Below are positions 20,766 through 34,378 of a stretch of 64,000 nucleotides of DNA, piece by piece. The notes beneath the pieces were generated by a model. The model was not told the DNA's origin and did no database searches. It saw only the letters and a program-made list of their open reading frames with translations. Position 1 is the first letter of the stretch; each line of letters begins with the position of its first letter. This DNA comes from Arenibacter arenosicollis (GTDB taxonomy: Bacteria; Bacteroidota; Bacteroidia; Flavobacteriales; Flavobacteriaceae), in NCBI RefSeq assembly GCF_014397245.1, contig NZ_JACLHY010000012.1:1-64000 (forward strand). The letters run 5' to 3'. A program made the translations under genes and the position numbers.

Positions 20766-21026
20766 TTATTTTTTATCCAATAATTTTAGGTCTATAATAT
20801 TAAGAGCATCCCTTACTGTTTGCATTTTATCCATATCCTCATTCTCCAATCGGATACCAAAAGTATCCTCTAGATCTAGGATAATATCTACCAAATGGGC
20901 GGAATTAATATTCAGTTCTGTTACAAAATTGCTCTCTTCCTCTACGGCCTCAATTGGAACATCTTCAGGGAGATATGTTTTAACGATTTCCTTGAGTCTG
21001 GCCAAACGTTCATCATTATCAACCAT
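20766..21026 (-). CDS. acyl carrier protein of the type III PKS operon
   Basis: 86 residues with four-helix ACP composition. The phosphopantetheine Ser is probably Ser42 in ELNINSAHLVDIIL, where the usual DSL is replaced by NSA. This departs from the housekeeping AcpP and fits a pathway-dedicated carrier. The acidic helix after it (DLEDTFGIRLENEDMDKM) is typical for docking of ketosynthases. It is last in the six-gene minus-strand operon, two bases after the ketosynthase gene, so it most likely carries the acyl chain that the ketosynthase and dehydratase build for the type III PKS. Confidence 0.88.
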   Translation of the reverse strand: MVDNDERLARLKEIVKTYLPEDVPIEAVEEESNFVTELNINSAHLVDIILDLEDTFGIRLENEDMDKMQTVRDALNIIDLKLLDKK

Positions 21027-21028
21027 AA

Positions 21029-22306
21029 TTACCTCTTTTTATATTCCTTAAAGATAATACAGGCATTTACATCTCCAAACCCAAAACTTGCTTTTGCAAT
21101 TATTTTTGGTCTATGCGCAATCGTTTTTCGCGGAATTTGGGAAACATCCACCAATTTCAGGATATCGGGATGTATATCTTGACAGTTTCGATTACCAAAG
21201 ACCACCCCCGCTCTATATTGCAATAGACTTGCTACACATTCAACGCTTCCCGCTGCAGCCAGACAATGACCTACCATTCCCTTTGTAGAATTTATAAACG
21301 GGAAATCCTTACCTGAGCGCTTTAAAGCCTCACTCCAATTTTTTATTTCTTCAGCATCCTTGGAGGTCGCGGTTAAATGGCCATTAATTACATCCACCTC
21401 TGACCTCTCTATTCCGGCATCGGACAATGCATCTAAAATACAGCGTTGGACCGCCTCACTATTCGGCGCCGTCATACTCCCTGCGCCACGCTGTCCACCA
21501 CTGTTTACTGCACCACCTAGAACTTCTGCGTAAATCTTGGCTCCCCTATCCAGGGCACTACCCAGGGACTCCAAAACCAAAGCTCCTGCCCCACTTCCTG
21601 GGACAAAACCCGCTGCTGTGGCACTCATTGGCCTGCTGGCTTCCTCTGGGTCATCATTATAATTGGAAGGAAGTATGCGCATGGCGTCGAAGCCACCCCA
21701 AATATATGGGCCACTGTCATTACAACTCCCAACCAACATCTTCTTGGCCTTTCCTGACCTAATACGTTCCAATCCCATAATAACCCCCTCTGTCCCTGTT
21801 GCACAGGCCGATGAATTGGTGGTCACTTGATTCCCGCATCCCAAAATCCCTCCCAGATAAGCACTTATGCCACTGGCCATGGTCTGCATAACGGAATTAC
21901 TGCCCAAACGCCTGGTGTTATTGTCATCTATTAAATAAATAGATTCCCTGAGCTTGTCTATTCCCAAAATTCCAGTGCCAAATATAATACCACTGTCCCA
22001 ATCGGGTTTATCCTTATTTGCCTTGCCCAAACCAGCATCCATCCACGCATCAGTTCCCGCCATGACCCCATAAACCACGCCACTTGAATTCAAACCCTTA
22101 AGCTGTAAAGGTGTAAAGTAGGATTCTTTTAAACTTTCAGATATTTCAGGCTTCCCGGCGATTTGACATCCGAAGCCCAAGTCCGCCAACTCCTGATGAA
22201 ATGTAATTCCACTTGCTCCGCTTTGCAGTGAATCATAAAAATTATACAAGCCTACCCCATTGGGAGCACATACACCAAGTCCAGTTACCACTACACGCGT
22301 GTTCAT
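21029..22306 (-). CDS. beta-ketoacyl-ACP synthase (FabF-like) of the type III PKS operon
   Basis: 425 residues. The elongating ketosynthase triad is present: Cys168 in TNSSACATGTEG, His310 in INGHLTATSKDAEE and His347 in KGMVGHCLAAAG. The middle motif differs from the housekeeping FabF NAHGTST form, so this is a specialised paralogue. It condenses malonyl-ACP with an acyl chain. The start overlaps the FabZ-like stop by four bases (ATGA) and the stop is two bases before the ACP gene, so the three are translationally coupled. Likely role: making the fatty starter unit for the type III PKS. Confidence 0.9.
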   Translation of the reverse strand: MNTRVVVTGLGVCAPNGVGLYNFYDSLQSGASGITFHQELADLGFGCQIAGKPEISESLKESYFTPLQLKGLNSSGVVYGVMAGTDAWMDAGLGKANKDKPDWDSGIIFGTGILGIDKLRESIYLIDDNNTRRLGSNSVMQTMASGISAYLGGILGCGNQVTTNSSACATGTEGVIMGLERIRSGKAKKMLVGSCNDSGPYIWGGFDAMRILPSNYNDDPEEASRPMSATAAGFVPGSGAGALVLESLGSALDRGAKIYAEVLGGAVNSGGQRGAGSMTAPNSEAVQRCILDALSDAGIERSEVDVINGHLTATSKDAEEIKNWSEALKRSGKDFPFINSTKGMVGHCLAAAGSVECVASLLQYRAGVVFGNRNCQDIHPDILKLVDVSQIPRKTIAHRPKIIAKASFGFGDVNACIIFKEYKKR

Positions 22307-22752
22307 ATATCACTATTCTTTAGCATCCCGGACAACACCCCCTTGCAAACCAACTGAGCTTGTTGATTATACATCTTCACTTCGCATTTCAATTTATTAA
22401 ATCTAAAATAAACCTTATTCGATTTTACCGTTACTTTTTCCAAAGGATAAACCGGTAATAAAAATTGCATCTCGGAACTACTTAGGGCCACTTGAAAATT
22501 CCCGGTAGTTTCTTCTTGACCATCCAACAAGTATATCCCCAAACATACCAAACCGATCTGCGCACAACATTCGGTCAGAATTACTCCAGGAGTAACAGCA
22601 TGCTCCTTAAAGTGTCCCATATAAAAAAACTCATCCTTTTTAAAAGTGTAGCTACCTTCAATAGTGTTTTCCGTTACCGATTGAAGTCCGTCAACAAATA
22701 AAAAAGGATCGGTGTATGGCAATTTTTTAATTATATTATTGATATATAACAT
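22303..22752 (-). CDS. FabZ-like 3-hydroxyacyl-ACP dehydratase
   Basis: 149 residues in a hot-dog fold. The catalytic pair is visible as His47 in YMGHFKEHAVTPGVI and Glu61 in LTECCAQIG, matching the FabZ HFPxxPxxPG and ExxAQ motifs. The N-terminal LPYTDPFLFVDG corresponds to FabZ LPHRxPFLxVD but with Tyr-Thr in place of His-Arg. It is coupled to the ketosynthase gene. Dehydration of 3-hydroxyacyl-ACP is the likely job; a thioesterase or priming role is possible. A ketoreductase and enoyl reductase are absent here and would have to come from housekeeping fatty acid synthesis. Confidence 0.83.
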   Translation of the reverse strand: MLYINNIIKKLPYTDPFLFVDGLQSVTENTIEGSYTFKKDEFFYMGHFKEHAVTPGVILTECCAQIGLVCLGIYLLDGQEETTGNFQVALSSSEMQFLLPVYPLEKVTVKSNKVYFRFNKLKCEVKMYNQQAQLVCKGVLSGMLKNSDI

Positions 22753-22833
22753 TTAAATTCACTTTATTTAAACTATCACTTTAATTTTATGGACAAGTAT
22801 CACCAATCTAAAACCCATCAATTTAAGCCTCGA

Positions 22834-23889
22834 TTACCATTCCAACAATATCCGTTGGGCAGAAAATCCAGGGCCAAAACTCAGCAACAAACCTTGCTCC
22901 CCCTTAGGAATACCTTTATCCATAAAGCGCTCCAAAACATAAAGCACAGTTGCGCTGCTCATATTGCCATACAATCGGAGCGTTTCTCGGGTATCGTCCA
23001 AATTCTTGCCCAATTTACCAAAGAGGCTTTCCACAGTCTCCACAATTTTCTTTCCCCCTGGGTGAAATATTAAATGGTCGACTTTTTCAATAGAACTACC
23101 ATTGCGCTTCAAAAAAGGATGAACAATATCGGGGAAATGTTCGGAAATAACTTGTGGCACAAGGGGATCTAAAATCATTTTTAGTCCCGTATTGGTCAAA
23201 TCAAAACCCATCAGCTGCGTAGCATCCGTAAAATGATACATTTCTTCGCCGACAATCCTGGGACCGATTGCTTCTTTTTCCGAGGAAACCAACGCACATG
23301 CCGCTCCGTCGCCAAAAATTGCGGCACTTACTACATTTGCCATAGAATAATCATTGAGTTGAAATGTAGCGGTGGGACTTTCAACAGCAACTATGGCCGC
23401 TCTCTTTCCGGGATTGGATTTAAGAAAATTACTAGCATAAATTAGACCTGAAATACCTGCCGCGCAGCCCATCTCCGTAACGGGCAAACGGATAATATCA
23501 TGCCTAAGATCTAAATCATTTATAAGGTAGGCGTCCAAAGAAGGAATCATGATTCCAGTACAACTAACTGTTATAATATAATCCAGACTGTCCGGACTCC
23601 AACCGCTTTTGACTAGGGCCTGCTCCAATACCGTCCTTCCCAGTTTCCTAACTTCTCGGATGTAAACATTATTTTTCTCTTCAAAAGAGGTTACTCCAAA
23701 AACCTCTTCTGGACTCATAATGCTGTATCGTTTATCTACTGCCGCCCCTTCAAAAATTTTAAGTACTTTTCGCTGAAACCGCGTATCCTGACCCTTCATC
23801 CATTCTTCCACAAAAGGCAAAATATCCTTGGTGTTTCTGCTGTATTCCGGTAATGCTTTGGTAACCGTAACTATCTTGGTTTCACTCAT
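22834..23889 (-). CDS. type III polyketide synthase (chalcone/stilbene synthase family)
   Basis: 351 residues from the ATG at 23889; an upstream in-frame ATG at 23913 would overlap the methyltransferase gene. The Cys-His-Asn triad is complete: Cys142 in VTEMGCAAGISG, His276 in LIFHPGGKKIVE and Asn309 in LYGNMSSATVL. Family enzymes extend an acyl starter with malonyl-CoA and cyclise it to resorcinols, pyrones or phloroglucinols without needing an ACP for extension. The adjacent ketosynthase, dehydratase and ACP suggest the starter is an acyl-ACP. Methyltransferase and FAD enzyme genes upstream mirror the SrsA-SrsB-SrsC phenolic lipid set of Streptomyces. Product unknown. Confidence 0.93.
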   Translation of the reverse strand: MSETKIVTVTKALPEYSRNTKDILPFVEEWMKGQDTRFQRKVLKIFEGAAVDKRYSIMSPEEVFGVTSFEEKNNVYIREVRKLGRTVLEQALVKSGWSPDSLDYIITVSCTGIMIPSLDAYLINDLDLRHDIIRLPVTEMGCAAGISGLIYASNFLKSNPGKRAAIVAVESPTATFQLNDYSMANVVSAAIFGDGAACALVSSEKEAIGPRIVGEEMYHFTDATQLMGFDLTNTGLKMILDPLVPQVISEHFPDIVHPFLKRNGSSIEKVDHLIFHPGGKKIVETVESLFGKLGKNLDDTRETLRLYGNMSSATVLYVLERFMDKGIPKGEQGLLLSFGPGFSAQRILLEW

Positions 23890-23899
23890 ATGGTGTATT

Positions 23900-24613
23900 T
23901 TATTCCTTAACACGTATAATCCATAAATATCGAAACGCCCATCTCCAACTTATATGGTGTTCTAAATTGGGTAGATTAATGGAAAAAGCTACTAAATCCA
24001 TTTTCGTAAATGCGCTTTTTATGGAAACTAAGCCATCATGCTTAGCAATCTTTGTTTTCATAAAAATAAGGCTAAAGAGTTTATAAAGATAATAGGACAC
24101 TTTACTTCTGTGTAAATCATTTATAACGACCCCCAATCTGCTCAGTTTTACAAATTGATTAAGAAAAATAGGAATTTTCTCGGAATCAAAATGATGCATG
24201 GTCAAGGTGCAAAGAAGAATATCACATTGTAGTTTGTTGGGTTCCAACGCAAGGATATCCTGTTCCAAGAATCTTATATTGGGGTATTCCTTGGAATTCT
24301 CTTTAGCGAGTTGAATGGACCTTGAATTTAAATCGATCCCAATCAGATTTAAATCAAAGGACCTACCCTTAAAATAAGAAGCAACTTCTCTCAACATGGC
24401 CCCATCCCCACAACCCATATCTAAAATGGTATAGGAATTCTGATGGTTATCTTCGATGATACTATTTATAGCTCTCAGAGAAAGGTAGAAACCTTTTAAA
24501 ACCTTATTGACCATATTTATGTCCGCATAAACCTCCTGCAAAAGCAAGGAATCCAAATTGGGATCATCCATTAGCTCCCTCTCACAACTACGGCTCGAAA
24601 AATTCATTCGCAT
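23900..24613 (-). CDS. class I SAM-dependent methyltransferase
   Basis: 237 residues. The SAM-binding motif I is YTILDMGCGDGAMLREVASY (about 70-89), followed by motif II LIGIDLNSRSIQLAKENS and motif III CDILLCTLTMHHF. The C-terminal half (LGVVINDLHRSKVSYYLYKL) matches methyltransferases found beside FAD oxidoreductases in such clusters. The start overlaps the FAD oxidoreductase stop by ten bases and the stop lies ten bases before the type III PKS start. By analogy with SrsB/BpsB it probably O-methylates (or C-methylates) the phenolic product. The acceptor is inferred from context only. Confidence 0.87.
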   Translation of the reverse strand: MRMNFSSRSCERELMDDPNLDSLLLQEVYADINMVNKVLKGFYLSLRAINSIIEDNHQNSYTILDMGCGDGAMLREVASYFKGRSFDLNLIGIDLNSRSIQLAKENSKEYPNIRFLEQDILALEPNKLQCDILLCTLTMHHFDSEKIPIFLNQFVKLSRLGVVINDLHRSKVSYYLYKLFSLIFMKTKIAKHDGLVSIKSAFTKMDLVAFSINLPNLEHHISWRWAFRYLWIIRVKE

Positions 24614-25728
24614 TCAATTAATTGTCCATGGGTATTCTTAATTAGCATATTCACCATATATGGAGACTTTGCCATTATACCCATAGCCATATATGAGACT
24701 TTTTCGTTCAGTAAAGCCCTTTGAAGCTGCCTGCCCAACCATAGCCTCCTGGAAAACATTTGTCTCCACTGCCTTTCATAGTCACTTTCCAATTGATGCC
24801 GATTTACAGAACCATTCCTAAAAAAAACATCCAATGATTCCGAGGCCATTTTTGCACTATGAATCGCCATAGCCATACCATTCCCGCACAAGGGATGTAT
24901 TAAGCCCGCGGTATCTCCACACATAAGGATATGTTCTTCCACAGGTTTTTTTTTGTGAAATGAAATCTGCCCTATGGCCAGTGGTTGATCAAATAGCATC
25001 TCGGCATTATCTAGAAAATTATTCAAATAGGGGTTCTTAGCAATAACATTCTGATTAAAACTATCAACATCCTTCTCTTTTTTAAAGCTATCATAGGAAA
25101 CCAGATAACAGAAATTAACAGCACCGCTCTCTGTCTTGGACAGACCGCCGTAACCGCCTCTGAAATTATGGATCGCCACCAGATTATCAGGAAAGGAATC
25201 TAACTTATAATGGGCTTTCACCCCCAACCAGGGGGACTTTTTTTGTATAAATTCGCGCTGTAATTCTTTGTCCAAAATCCCTCTTTTACCATAAGCGCCA
25301 ATCACAAATTTTCCCGTATATTTTTTCCCCGACGCTGTAAAAACTCCAAAGCTGTCATTTTCAAATTCCACTGAGGTTACATTTTCGGGAATAACAAAAA
25401 CCCCCAAGGCAATTGCCCTTATATATAAAGCGTTATCAAAAGTATACCTGCTAATACCAAAGCCGCCTAATGGCAATTGAGCCTTCAATGTTTTACCATT
25501 TACGGTACTAAACAACATTTTATTGATCTGAACTGTTCGTGGCAACAAAACCCCTAAAAATGCCATATATGGCAATACTTCGTTGGAAACATACTCTCCA
25601 CAAACCTTATGATGGGGATATTGCCTAGCTTCAAAAACCGCCACATTGTAGTTTTTTAGTTTCAAATGAATGGCAGCCGTTAATCCGGCCAGACCTCCTC
25701 CAACAATTATAACATCAAAAGAATCCAT
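24604..25728 (-). CDS. FAD-dependent oxidoreductase (geranylgeranyl reductase/phenol hydroxylase-like)
   Basis: 374 residues. The N-terminal dinucleotide fold FDVIIVGGGLAGLTAAIHLK, the KVCGEYVS motif around residue 45 and the second FAD motif MCGDTAGLIHPLCGNGMAMA (about 270-289) place it in the geranylgeranyl reductase/flavin monooxygenase group. It is the first gene of the six-gene operon, whose promoter must lie in the short gap after the OmpA terminator. Relatives either reduce isoprenoid double bonds or hydroxylate aromatic rings. Next to a type III PKS and methyltransferase, ring hydroxylation to a quinone (SrsC-like) is the better guess, but not certain. Confidence 0.85.
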   Translation of the reverse strand: MDSFDVIIVGGGLAGLTAAIHLKLKNYNVAVFEARQYPHHKVCGEYVSNEVLPYMAFLGVLLPRTVQINKMLFSTVNGKTLKAQLPLGGFGISRYTFDNALYIRAIALGVFVIPENVTSVEFENDSFGVFTASGKKYTGKFVIGAYGKRGILDKELQREFIQKKSPWLGVKAHYKLDSFPDNLVAIHNFRGGYGGLSKTESGAVNFCYLVSYDSFKKEKDVDSFNQNVIAKNPYLNNFLDNAEMLFDQPLAIGQISFHKKKPVEEHILMCGDTAGLIHPLCGNGMAMAIHSAKMASESLDVFFRNGSVNRHQLESDYERQWRQMFSRRLWLGRQLQRALLNEKVSYMAMGIMAKSPYMVNMLIKNTHGQLIECE

Positions 25729-25750: not shown

Positions 25751-25781
25751 ACAAAAAACCCGACGAATATCGCCGGGTTTT
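25751..25781 (-). terminator. rho-independent terminator of the OmpA-like gene
   Basis: AAAACCCGACGA (25755-25766) pairs with TCGCCGGGTTTT (25770-25781), 11 of 12 positions, with a three-base loop. On the minus strand a T-rich run follows. It separates the OmpA gene from the type III PKS operon. Confidence 0.8.
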
Positions 25782-25800: not shown

Positions 25801-26496
25801 TTATTTTTTGGCTTTCATAAGCGCTTCTTGTTGCAAAGCCTCATTGGCTACAATCACCAATTCTACCCTACGGTTTTTAGCTTTTCCGGCAGTGGTGCTG
25901 TTATCAGCTTTAGGCTGGGATTCACCATACCAAGCAGTAGTTAATCTATTTTTGGAGATTCCGTTGCTAGTTAGGTAATTGGTCACAGACTGTGCCCGTT
26001 GCTTGGATAGATTTAAATTGTAATCATCTGGTCCCGCACTATCGGTATGACCTTCAACTAAAATATTGGTGTCAGGATATTCTTTCAAAATACCAACCAA
26101 TCTGTCCAATGTTGAAGCGGAAGTACCTTTAACATCAGATTTGTTGGTATCGAAATACACACCTGCATCCTCATTAAAAGTTACATTTATTCCTTCACCA
26201 ACCCTAGTAACTTCTGCACCTGGAATTTCTTCCTCTATACGTTCGGCCTGGCGATCCATTCGATCACCTATATAACCACCGGCAACACCACCTACCACAG
26301 CTCCAATTATGGCACCCAAAGCAGTATTACCACCCTTTCCTACATTGTTACCCAAAACACCACCAATAACTGCGCCACCGGCAGCACCCGTTGCTGCACC
26401 TCTTTGCTTATGGTTGGTGTTCTTAACTGCCTGACAGCTACTGAATGTAGCTAAAATCATTATAATGCTTAAACTACTTACTATTATTTTTTTCAT
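25801..26496 (-). CDS. OmpA family lipoprotein with glycine-zipper segment
   Basis: 231 residues. A lipoprotein signal peptide (ATFSSCQAVKN, Cys near 21) is followed by a glycine-zipper domain (about 35-80, GAAGGAVIGGVLGNNVGKGG and GAVVGGVAGGYIGD) and a C-terminal OmpA peptidoglycan-binding domain (about 110-215) with ILVEGHTDSAGPDDYNLNLS, LSKQRAQSV and a KNRRVELVI ending. It should be lipid-anchored at the outer membrane and grip the cell wall. Monocistronic, with its own terminator. The combination resembles YiaD-type envelope proteins. Confidence 0.92.
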   Translation of the reverse strand: MKKIIVSSLSIIMILATFSSCQAVKNTNHKQRGAATGAAGGAVIGGVLGNNVGKGGNTALGAIIGAVVGGVAGGYIGDRMDRQAERIEEEIPGAEVTRVGEGINVTFNEDAGVYFDTNKSDVKGTSASTLDRLVGILKEYPDTNILVEGHTDSAGPDDYNLNLSKQRAQSVTNYLTSNGISKNRLTTAWYGESQPKADNSTTAGKAKNRRVELVIVANEALQQEALMKAKK

Positions 26497-26616
26497 CTGA
26501 ATTTATTATTTAATGTTAGTCCCTATTATTAGGGTCTCATACCTCCATCTATACAGAAACTATGCCAATCGCCACTTGTCCCGATATCCGTGTGAAGGTG
26601 TCTTCAATATTGTTGT

Positions 26617-27123
26617 TTATAAATTTTGGTCGTTTTTTGAAAAGTCGTATACCACAGTCAACGGTTGTCCCTCAACAGTAACTTTTGAGGTCAACCTCAT
26701 TTGTTGTTCGCTTAGCAGTTCAATGTCCAACCTATATCCTAGACCCCCGGATATATCCTTGTATTTATCATCAATGAATTTAAATTGCAATTGACTCGTC
26801 ATGCCTTCCCTGTCAACAACAGACCAACGGATAAAGCGCTCTGCCCCATCACAATTACTACCGTTTCCCAACATGTAGCTACCAGTACTGTTATTATTTC
26901 TAAAAAACCAGGTACTGCCCTCAAAACAAGAGGCATCGGCGTCATTAAATAATACGGATTTAAATTTCCCCTGACTTCCTTGATAGGAAACATTGTTTAA
27001 AACCCAATTACCACTTAAAACATTCCTATCCTGTCTGGCCGCCTTGGAAACGGAACAGGAGGTAACAAGACCAGCTGTAAACACTAGCAATAATATAACC
27101 TTTTTTAAATGCATAATTTTCAT
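26617..27123 (-). CDS. lipocalin family lipoprotein
   Basis: 168 residues (an alternative ATG lies at 27114). A lipoprotein signal (LVTSCSVSKAARQ) precedes the lipocalin-type opening LSGNWVLNNVSYQGSQGKF, with the conserved G.W after the first strand and beta-strand-rich sequence through WSVVDREGMTSQLQFKFIDD and GYRLDIELLSEQQMRLTSKV. Bacteroidota lipocalin-like lipoproteins are envelope proteins that may bind hydrophobic ligands; no ligand is known here. It is transcribed towards the OmpA gene, 120 bases away, possibly in one unit. Confidence 0.8.
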   Translation of the reverse strand: MKIMHLKKVILLLVFTAGLVTSCSVSKAARQDRNVLSGNWVLNNVSYQGSQGKFKSVLFNDADASCFEGSTWFFRNNNSTGSYMLGNGSNCDGAERFIRWSVVDREGMTSQLQFKFIDDKYKDISGGLGYRLDIELLSEQQMRLTSKVTVEGQPLTVVYDFSKNDQNL

Positions 27124-32401: not shown

Positions 32402-34378
32402 TTAATAGGCCAACAACTTAAATAGCTCATTTACAAATCGCGCTTTTGGCAAATAATTATTTTCCAAATTTTTGGCAAATGGAATTGGGGTCTCCAAACT
32501 GGCTACCCGCATAACTGGAGCATCCAAGAATTTAAAACAGTTTTCCATTACCAAGGCTGAAATATCACTTGCTACTCCCCCAAACAGACTATCTTCCTGT
32601 AGGATAATGAGTTTGCCGGTCTTTTGTACGGAGGTATAAATAGCATCCATATCCATGGGCTGTAAGGTTCTTAGATCCAACAGATCGGCCTTAATATCTG
32701 GATTCTCATTTAATGCATCCAAGGCCCAATGTACTCCTAGTCCATAACTAACTACGGTAATATCCGAGCCTTCTTTTAAGATGGCAGCTTTACCAAAAGG
32801 CAAGGTGTAATAATCCTCTGGCACTTCTTGATAAATACTCCTGTAAAGTCCCTTGTGCTCAAAAAATAATACTGGATTGGGGTCGTTTATGGAAGTGGCC
32901 AAAAGACCTTTGGCATCATAGGGAAACGCTGGATATACCACTTTTAAGCCTGGGGTCTTGGTAAACCAGGCCTCGTTGGTCTGGGAGTGAAAAGGCCCAG
33001 CACCTACACCGGCACCGCAGGGCATCCTTATGACTACATCGGCATTTTCTCCCCAGCGGTAATGCACCTTTGCCAAATAGTTTACGATTGGATTAAACCC
33101 CGTACTCACAAAATCTGCAAATTGCATTTCCATTACCGATTTCACTCCGTTTATAGAGAGCCCCATGGCCGCGGAAACCACAGCTGATTCACATATAGGG
33201 GTATTTCTAATCCGCTCTTTCCCGAAGGTTTGCACAAAACCCTCCGTAATTTTAAATACACCTCCATAATCCGCAATATCCTGGCCCATAACAACAAGGT
33301 TATCATGCCTATCCATGGATTGTTTCAGTCCTTGGGACACGGCATCTATCAATCTAATGTTACTGGTGGCGGAACTATGGTTATGTTGCTGATAGTCAAA
33401 TACTTTATAAACATCCCCTAACTCTTTGGTTTGATCTACCTCTATTTCCTGCTCCGAAAAAGCCTTCTTTAAATCATAGTCGATTTCAGCATAAATTTCA
33501 TTTTTAAGGGTTTCTATCAAATGTGCGGAAAGAATCTTTTCGTCCAACAGAAATTTTTCGAAATTTACGATTGGATCTTTTTCCTCCCAAGCGTCCAATA
33601 ATTCCTGGGGTACATACTTGGTCCCACTCGCCTCTTCATGGCCTCGCATCCTGAACGTTTTAAATTCCAACAGAACAGGTCTTGGATTTTTGCGCATACT
33701 TTTGCAAATCTCATCAACCATAGAAAACACTTCCAGTATATTGTTTCCGTCCACAATATGCGATTCCATTCCGTAGCCTGGACCCTTATCCGCCAAATTT
33801 TCACATTTATATTGTTCATTTGTTGGTGTAGACAGACCATACCCGTTATTTTCAATACAAAACAATACAGGCAAATTCCACACAGCAGCAAGGTTTAACG
33901 ACTCATGGAAATCGCCCTCACTAGTGCCTCCCTCTCCTGTAAAAACTGCAGTAACCCTTTTATTGTTTTTAAGAAGGTCTGCAAGTGCAATCCCGTCCGC
34001 TACACCCAACTGGGGGCCCAAGTGGGAAATCATCCCCACAATTCTATACTCCTGGGTCCCAAAATGAAAACTTCTATCCCTGCCATTGGTAAAGCCATTG
34101 GCTTTTCCCTGCCATTGGGAAAAAAGTCTGTGCAAGGGAATGTTCCTCGTAGTAAAAACCCCTAAGTTACGGTGCATGGGCAATATATACTCGTCTGGGG
34201 TCAAAGCACTTGCCACTCCGACAGATATCGCTTCTTGGCCAATACCACTGAACCATTTCGAAATTTTCCCTTGGCGAAGGAGAATCAACATTTTTTCCTC
34301 AATCAAACGGGGTTTTAACATTCGTTGATAAAGTTTTAATTGCATGGCCTTATCAACACTATCGCCTTTATATTGCAT
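32402..34378 (-). CDS. 2-oxoacid dehydrogenase E1, fused alpha and beta subunits
   Basis: 658 residues. Residues about 10-310 are the thiamine-diphosphate-binding alpha subunit (FTGEGGTSEGDFHESLNLAA then FCIENNGYGLSTP, the GDG-NN motif region), and about 340-655 are the transketolase-like beta subunit (VVMGQDIADYGGVFKITEGF, ESAVVSAAMG). This fused arrangement is common in Bacteroidota and is usually annotated as branched-chain 2-oxoisovalerate dehydrogenase E1. It decarboxylates the keto acid and acylates E2 lipoyl groups. No E2 or E3 gene is adjacent. It is followed by the histidine kinase and regulator. Confidence 0.92.
   Translation of the reverse strand: MQYKGDSVDKAMQLKLYQRMLKPRLIEEKMLILLRQGKISKWFSGIGQEAISVGVASALTPDEYILPMHRNLGVFTTRNIPLHRLFSQWQGKANGFTNGRDRSFHFGTQEYRIVGMISHLGPQLGVADGIALADLLKNNKRVTAVFTGEGGTSEGDFHESLNLAAVWNLPVLFCIENNGYGLSTPTNEQYKCENLADKGPGYGMESHIVDGNNILEVFSMVDEICKSMRKNPRPVLLEFKTFRMRGHEEASGTKYVPQELLDAWEEKDPIVNFEKFLLDEKILSAHLIETLKNEIYAEIDYDLKKAFSEQEIEVDQTKELGDVYKVFDYQQHNHSSATSNIRLIDAVSQGLKQSMDRHDNLVVMGQDIADYGGVFKITEGFVQTFGKERIRNTPICESAVVSAAMGLSINGVKSVMEMQFADFVSTGFNPIVNYLAKVHYRWGENADVVIRMPCGAGVGAGPFHSQTNEAWFTKTPGLKVVYPAFPYDAKGLLATSINDPNPVLFFEHKGLYRSIYQEVPEDYYTLPFGKAAILKEGSDITVVSYGLGVHWALDALNENPDIKADLLDLRTLQPMDMDAIYTSVQKTGKLIILQEDSLFGGVASDISALVMENCFKFLDAPVMRVASLETPIPFAKNLENNYLPKARFVNELFKLLAY

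Follow-up and report, generated by a model that had tools for sequence, protein, structure and literature searches.

A conserved operon of Arenibacter arenosicollis that joins a type III polyketide synthase to separate acyl-chain enzymes and an acyl carrier protein, and its predicted lipid product

In Streptomyces griseus, SrsABC groups a type III polyketide synthase (PKS), a methyltransferase (MT) and a flavin adenine dinucleotide (FAD) enzyme without acyl-chain enzymes, and SrsB is an ICMT-type membrane methyltransferase; in systems of the BpsA-BpsB type, a type III PKS for long acyl chains is paired with an ICMT. The DNA analysed here (the window: the first 64,000 nucleotides of Arenibacter arenosicollis contig NZ_JACLHY010000012.1, assembly GCF_014397245.1) carries on its minus strand, from 25728 to 20766, six open reading frames (ORFs) for an FAD oxidoreductase, a class I MT, a type III PKS, a FabZ-like dehydratase (DH), a FabF-like beta-ketoacyl synthase (KS) and an acyl carrier protein (ACP). 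Among lipid systems built on a type III PKS, this operon appears to be a variant that is kept in many genera and differs from those described; its chemistry is predicted. We consider it rather likely that the operon's product is an aromatic or pyrone compound with a lipid tail, formed by way of an acyl-ACP that is made within the operon and handed to the type III PKS.

An earlier note on this DNA had drawn a parallel with SrsA-SrsB-SrsC, of which the PKS/MT/FAD trio stood, whereas orthology was rejected on MT class, SrsB being ICMT-type and the Arenibacter enzyme a class I MT; no match to PF04140 (ICMT) was listed among the Pfam matches of the six genes, and a BpsB-like ICMT partner was likewise not found among them. 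The hierridin operon hidABC of cyanobacteria and its planctomycetal counterpart are nearer and likewise group the genes for MT, oxidoreductase and type III PKS; the Arenibacter order FAD-MT-PKS differs from that of hidABC, and the hidABC and planctomycetal operons, as described in PMC10896814, are without KS, DH, enoyl reductase (ER) or ACP. In the ars operon of Azotobacter, type III PKSs receive their ACP-bound chain from a dedicated fatty acid synthase (PMC6274091); this synthase, ArsA, is a type I multidomain protein according to PMC3098273, where the ars type of secondary lipid synthase is covered, whereas the Arenibacter enzymes are separate proteins. Compared with the ars hybrid, the Arenibacter operon has KS, DH and ACP, 69 of 80 relatives add an ER, and there is no ketoreductase (KR), so that the full type II fatty acid synthase set (KS, KR, DH, ER and ACP) was not found together, KR being missing from the operon and ER in Arenibacter. 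Acceptance of ACP-bound chains has been described for ArsB and ArsC (chains from the ArsA ACP) and for Gcs and SCO7671 (hexanoyl-ACP) in PMC6274091, and for CylI, which is described as able to use an ACP-bound substrate and makes an alkylresorcinol intermediate; in the cylindrocyclophane pathway the chain is loaded on CylB and passes two type I PKSs, with a halogenase and a dimerising enzyme (PMC8086630). The UbiA-297/ebo locus, as presented in PMC9235831, is a different locus and was not used.

All six ORFs and their Pfam domains, which the earlier note had claimed as close or overlapping genes at 20766-25728, were recovered. The FAD-dependent oxidoreductase (24604..25728; Pfam FAD_binding_3) belongs to the geranylgeranyl-reductase superfamily (TIGR02032, 110 bits, below the cut-off of 158.8) and is a putative ring hydroxylase or oxidase; a halogenase was rejected because the halogenase motif WxWxIP is absent. 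The class I S-adenosylmethionine-dependent MT (23900..24613; Pfam Methyltransf_25; best NCBIfam PRK06202, 137 bits, below the cut-off of 243) is a putative ring O- or C-methyltransferase. The type III PKS (22834..23913) matched Chal_sti_synt N and C over the cut-off and is followed by the FabZ/FabA-like 3-hydroxyacyl-ACP dehydratase, whose catalytic His and Glu are present (22303..22752; Pfam FabA-like), the FabF-like beta-ketoacyl-ACP synthase with Cys-His-Lys-His (21029..22306; Pfam ketoacyl-synt N and C) and the ACP (20766..21026; Pfam PP-binding), whose serine lies in an Asn-Ser motif. FAD and MT genes overlap by 10 bp and DH and KS genes by 4 bp, with gaps of 81 bp from PKS to DH and 2 bp between KS and ACP; MT and PKS overlap by 14 bp if the PKS starts at GTG 23913, and the true start may be ATG 23889 (a PKS of 351 amino acids), since many relatives, though not all, align only from residues 7-13.

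The earlier note had proposed a search of genomes for the six-gene order and had held its reading to be refutable should the genes not be conserved together in relatives. A scan of genome contigs gave 399 matches, of which the best 80, all named loci and leaning to near relatives, were compared: 76 had the complete order FAD-MT-PKS-DH-KS-ACP and the other four were cut by contig ends, and no such dispersal occurred. The operon PKS was 77-95% identical to those of the named Arenibacter loci, and the best four of the 80 were all Arenibacter. In an even sample of the phylum (395 genomes, PKS match at E <= 1e-25), some PKS match was found in 173 genomes and a close PKS (at least 67% identity) in 29 of 40 genomes of the own family (coded f1 and taken as Flavobacteriaceae) and in three genomes of two other families; among 60 relatives searched, it was present in 17/17 same-genus and 8/19 same-family other-genus genomes. 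A KS ortholog (E <= 1e-173) accompanied the PKS in 29/29 PKS-bearing f1 genomes and in all three of the other families, and was found in none of the 11 PKS-lacking f1 genomes (best match there about 1e-51, FabF-like). A chance neighbourhood was ruled out by the 80 named loci together with this co-occurrence, and the operon was confirmed as a unit conserved across many genera. The six-gene set claimed earlier is thus a real unit, but one to which 69 of the 80 named relatives add a seventh gene, for an ER, lost in Arenibacter. One TAA was reported inside the PKS match of locus L016 (genome G008) and one inside the KS match of G142. The constant pairing bears on an alternative that we regard as unlikely, though to be reckoned with, namely that the PKS takes ordinary cellular acyl-coenzyme A (acyl-CoA) or acyl-ACP while the acyl group made by KS, DH and ACP is a separate or accessory one of the same pathway: in the 40 family genomes KS ortholog and PKS always occurred together.

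Residues were read from alignments of operon and cassette members, drawn wherever there was a match from the 80 named loci, L140-L144 and L195-L214. The complete PKS Cys-His-Asn triad claimed earlier was borne out, with Cys150, His284 and Asn317 intact in 97/97 rows. In the KS, Cys168 was present in 104/105 and His310, Lys342 and His347 in 102/105 rows, the remainder being gaps; in the DH, His47 was found in 102/103 (one Asn) and Glu61 in 102/103 (one gap); ACP Ser42 was invariant (100/100). The residue preceding this serine is Asp in housekeeping ACPs, and it was Asn in 97 of the 100 rows and Asp in L202, L204 and L213, which are weak matches of the housekeeping type, so that all 97 cassette ACPs carry Asn-Ser. 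The operon ACP was 28% identical to an own-genome ACP match adjoining a FabF paralogue, and the nearest own-genome paralogue of the operon KS had 37% identity, which rules out a recent FabF copy.

The predicted PKS model (pLDDT 82.9, built from 15 sequences) had the thiolase fold, with query-normalised TM-scores of 0.86-0.90 against CylI and Pks11 chains. By fold, CylI ranked first among solved structures on E-value (26% identity) and Pks11 next with a slightly higher TM-score; by sequence, Pks11 was first. By their entry titles, these two comprise a resorcinol synthase and an alkylpyrone synthase, which leaves the ring type open, and resorcinol, pyrone and quinone cannot be told apart from sequence. 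The high rank of CylI also speaks for a quite improbable alternative in which the PKS receives a beta-ketoacyl-ACP straight from the KS and adds fewer units of its own, as is reported for germicidin synthase and suggested by the CylI structures, to give an alkylpyrone or resorcinol: CylI was solved with a beta-ketoacyl-N-acetylcysteamine substrate (entry title), and PMC6274091 lists a Streptomyces coelicolor reference whose title names a beta-ketoacyl-ACP starter. Against it, such a last step would leave the conserved DH, and the ER that most relatives have, without a role.

In the reading that we prefer, in which chain transfer from ACP to PKS, the borrowing of FabG and ER, the ring type, the order of tailoring and a membrane location are inferred, KS and DH, with a borrowed housekeeping ketoreductase and in Arenibacter also a borrowed enoyl reductase, would elongate a chain on the dedicated ACP. 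The type III PKS would take the chain from the ACP onto its cysteine, add malonyl-CoA units and cyclise it, most likely to an alkylresorcinol or alkylpyrone, and the class I MT and FAD enzyme would then methylate and oxidise the ring.

Further pieces of such a pathway were found in relatives. The seventh gene, present between PKS and DH in 69/80 named loci, encodes a short-chain dehydrogenase/reductase (SDR) whose best NCBIfam was FabL (149 and 146 bits in the two tested, below the cut-off of 328) and whose best solved structure was FabL 3oic (one tested); the enoyl reductase pattern Tyr-x6-Lys was kept, with Tyr in 85/87 and Lys in 86/87 rows. From a separate alignment of this gene, the L083 row was left out as a different SDR. 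The ER was found in 11 of the 29 sampled PKS-bearing f1 genomes (in none of the 16 of genus g40) and in one of the three PKS-bearing genomes of other families. On a tree of PKS and KS from 92 loci (a quick tree with one long-branch warning, loci with incomplete PKS or KS left out), ER presence needs seven changes, at least six of them forced by well supported branches. With the root placed on four f94 loci by the analyst's choice, the basal loci carry the ER, so that repeated loss is the simplest reading and a FabL-like ER was probably ancestral to the operon. A phosphopantetheinyl transferase (PPTase) gene follows the ACP in 41/80 loci, in 41/41 within 400 bp and on the same strand. ER in 69/80 and PPTase in 41/80 loci are pieces of acyl-ACP synthesis and therefore argue for a chain made in the operon. 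No match was obtained elsewhere in the own genome with the L041 PPTase as query, in a search that had no known positive and shows nothing; the general Pfam PPTase family gave two own-genome candidates, which were not shown to belong to the operon. Behind the PPTase gene of L041 lies a 268-amino-acid ORF without Pfam match (L041:12370-13173), with homologues in 38/80 loci. The Salinimicrobium loci L083 (9952-10749) and L090 carry a further SDR inside the operon, that of L083, with Tyr-x3-Lys, being a possible candidate ketoreductase.

The acyl-chain genes were also found apart from the PKS. A KS search of the class (395 genomes) gave 32 genomes at E <= 1e-75, own genome included; 20 loci of 19 genomes were fetched, without G724 and with G447, which came from the search for KS orthologs. 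PKS, DH and KS occurred together in 12 of these (L196, L197, L201-L204, L208, L209, L211-L214), operons of other families in which the ER was present in 11/12 (not L211) and an FAD match above 300 bits in 11/12, L204 starting at a contig end. Housekeeping-type ACP and KS matches lay nearby in L202, L204 and L213, with an adjoining RNase III gene in L202. In L196 (5216-12929, G728), the operon has a second MT match, and behind the operon lies an MMPL-family transporter gene, possibly for a lipid exporter. No PKS was found in the other eight (L195, L198, L199, L200, L205, L206, L207, L210), an absence that is less sure for L200, L206 and L210, which are contigs of 5-9 kb. In L195 and L205, from two families, ER-DH-KS-ACP-PPTase stands divergent from a conserved gene set that in L205 comprises a KASIII-like protein, a BtrH_N/DUF4872 protein and an ABC transporter, the BtrH_N/DUF4872 protein having a homologue in L195. 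A FeeM N-acyl amino acid synthase stands at the head of the L210 cluster, which also has ER, KS, FabH, DH, ACP and PPTase of the same families, and in L206 and L207 KS-ACP-PPTase occurs with PhyH, glycosyltransferase and asparagine synthase genes (Pfam-tested in L206). FeeM and BtrH accept acyl groups from carrier proteins, and the cassette's position beside other acyl users is the best indirect evidence in support of its making acyl-ACP.

The same finding bears on a reverse order of steps, which we hold to be very unlikely: the PKS would first make an aromatic or small polyketide, which would then be attached to the ACP and given a polyene or alkyl tail by KS and DH, in the manner of aryl polyene and flexirubin synthesis. 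KS, DH and ACP without KR or ER do resemble parts of aryl polyene systems, and a further own-genome KS locus (C21), adjoining KR- and ACP-like matches, could help; against this order, however, stand the adjoining acyl transfer enzymes just described, the absence among the six genes of any adenylation or ligase gene for ACP loading, and the ER of the probable ancestral operon, which would remove the polyene.

As to origin, the comparison took in 34 loci across the phylum whose PKS is distant (29-37% identity; stretches of 9-15 kb fetched), and KS, DH or ACP of the operon kind was found in 0/34 within the stretch fetched, G447 carrying the cassette elsewhere (L195). Twelve of the 34 are BpsA-BpsB-like PKS/ICMT pairs, in which the PKS is followed by a gene similar to the L153 MT, whose Pfam match is ICMT; beside the PKS of these 12, no operon-family class I MT, FAD enzyme or acyl cassette was found. 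Seven Bacteroidia loci carry a PKS-MT-FAD trio, scoring 164-246 (MT) and 357-427 bits (FAD) with the operon profiles; a gene similar to the UbiA prenyltransferase-family gene of L177 (Pfam-tested there) adjoins the trio in L160, L169, L171, L172, L177 and L178. The operon FADs formed one clade (96/94) among the trio FADs in a second tree, a grouping not seen in the first, which had fewer rows and a shortened own FAD, and the trio MTs fell among the operon MTs in a tree with a long-branch warning. The operon PKSs formed their own clade (99/100), and one clade of operon PKSs with the seven trio PKSs, which stood in for the HidC clade, was rejected (p-AU 0.000718; 4e-6 on the first tree), whereas a joint clade with the ICMT-associated group was not (p-AU 0.192; BpsA itself absent from the tree, and 12 of the 14 group members with an ICMT neighbour, none having been found for L145 and L150). 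L176, a 100-base placeholder region, was left out of the analysis, and L182 and L183 were left out of the second PKS tree as long branches; that tree held only four characterised chains and was without HidC, ArsB/C, SrsA and BpsA. With FAD and MT of the trio kind, a separate PKS clade and an acyl cassette, the operon looks chimeric, apparently combining trio-type tailoring genes, a different PKS and the cassette. A plasmid search turned up a PKS-MT-FAD trio in Paracoccus, and FAD homologues of Bernardetia and Hymenobacter had no annotated PKS nearby.

A wider and more tentative picture, doubtful as a whole, is that KS-DH-ER-ACP-PPTase would be a portable Bacteroidia acyl-ACP cartridge, insulated from primary fatty acid synthesis by its Asn-Ser carrier and coupled to a type III PKS clade, FeeM-like N-acyltransferases and BtrH-like proteins; the PKS version would have kept the FAD and MT of an older trio and swapped its PKS for a carrier-dedicated one, and repeated ER loss would turn the alkyl tail into an alkenyl tail with the double bond next to the ring.

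Several observations weigh against an acyl-ACP made in the operon and handed to the PKS. No ketoreductase lies among the six genes, so that the housekeeping FabG (a match over the cut-off lies elsewhere in the genome, G000:C66) must be borrowed if chains are elongated. The ER is absent from 17/17 Arenibacter-genus loci, and the best own-genome match has only 29% identity, which rules out relocation within the genome and indicates that it was lost rather than moved. Across seven contrasts, no residues of PKS, KS, DH, MT or FAD changed with ER loss beyond chance: of 128 sign flips, the fraction that attained the observed maximum was 0.23 for the PKS, 0.31 for the KS, 1.0 for the DH and 0.98 for MT and FAD; of these, the results for PKS and KS weigh against this reading. 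In L198 and L199 the cassette adjoins polyphosphate genes, which give no hint of its role. Among the PKSs compared, none with a known product falls in the operon PKS clade, whose deep placement, with long branches, is poorly resolved. In five of the 12 other-family operons (L197, L202, L204, L213, L214), inspection by eye of the 900 bases after the KS gave no convincing dedicated ACP, so that this ACP is not indispensable.

The last point also favours the PKS using ordinary cellular acyl groups, as does the finding that no such KS, DH or ACP accompanies the Bacteroidia trios whose FAD and MT are homologous (0/34 distant loci, within the stretch fetched). To the same effect, planctomycetal PKSs from MT-oxidoreductase-PKS operons worked in a foreign host, C. 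glutamicum, without partner KS or ACP, where they gave penta- or heptadecylresorcinols, according to PMC10896814; this too tells against a chain handed over within the operon. Use of ordinary acyl groups is countered, besides the pairing of KS and PKS, by the operon PKS not forming one clade with the seven Bacteroidia trio PKSs. The claim in the earlier note of an ACP-bound chain made in the operon is therefore kept as the best reading, on the strength of KS/PKS co-occurrence, ER and PPTase in relatives, the cassette beside other acyl users and CylI as top fold, with the correction that no KR lies in the operon.

Directly upstream (25801-27123) lie an OmpA/glycine-zipper lipoprotein gene and a small lipoprotein-like gene. 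Counted with their L032 copies, 74 and 72 of the 80 loci, respectively, have homologues, which means that the chromosomal setting of the operon is also conserved. Between the OmpA-type gene and the FAD gene, a terminator-like hairpin was found at 25755..25781 (minus strand), a consensus match only, of a kind found at 11 sites where shuffled sequence gave 5.8 on average. A fused dehydrogenase E1-like gene (32402-34378), apparently of the branched-chain 2-oxoacid type, a name taken from its sequence only, has homologues in 66/80 loci (counted with the L041 and L061 copies); in L041 and L061 it lies upstream of the two lipoprotein genes, and other genes intervene in Arenibacter arenosicollis.

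Type III PKS clusters are a frequent predicted type in Flavobacteriaceae, with 10.74% of the clusters in a study of 2,680 genomes (PMC10734526); PMC10734526 and PMC7440613, as far as consulted, give numbers of flavobacterial type III PKS clusters without resolving them. In the open-licence literature, searched by title and abstract start, no paper on a product tied to this operon was found among the matches listed, nor among them one on a named product of a type III PKS cluster in Flavobacteriaceae. The present findings give the operon a defined gene set, a mechanism that is assayable with purified proteins and a clean comparison of ER-bearing with ER-lacking lineages. If the proposed mechanism is true, a discrete-enzyme version would join the known hand-over from type I fatty acid synthase to type III PKS of Azotobacter.

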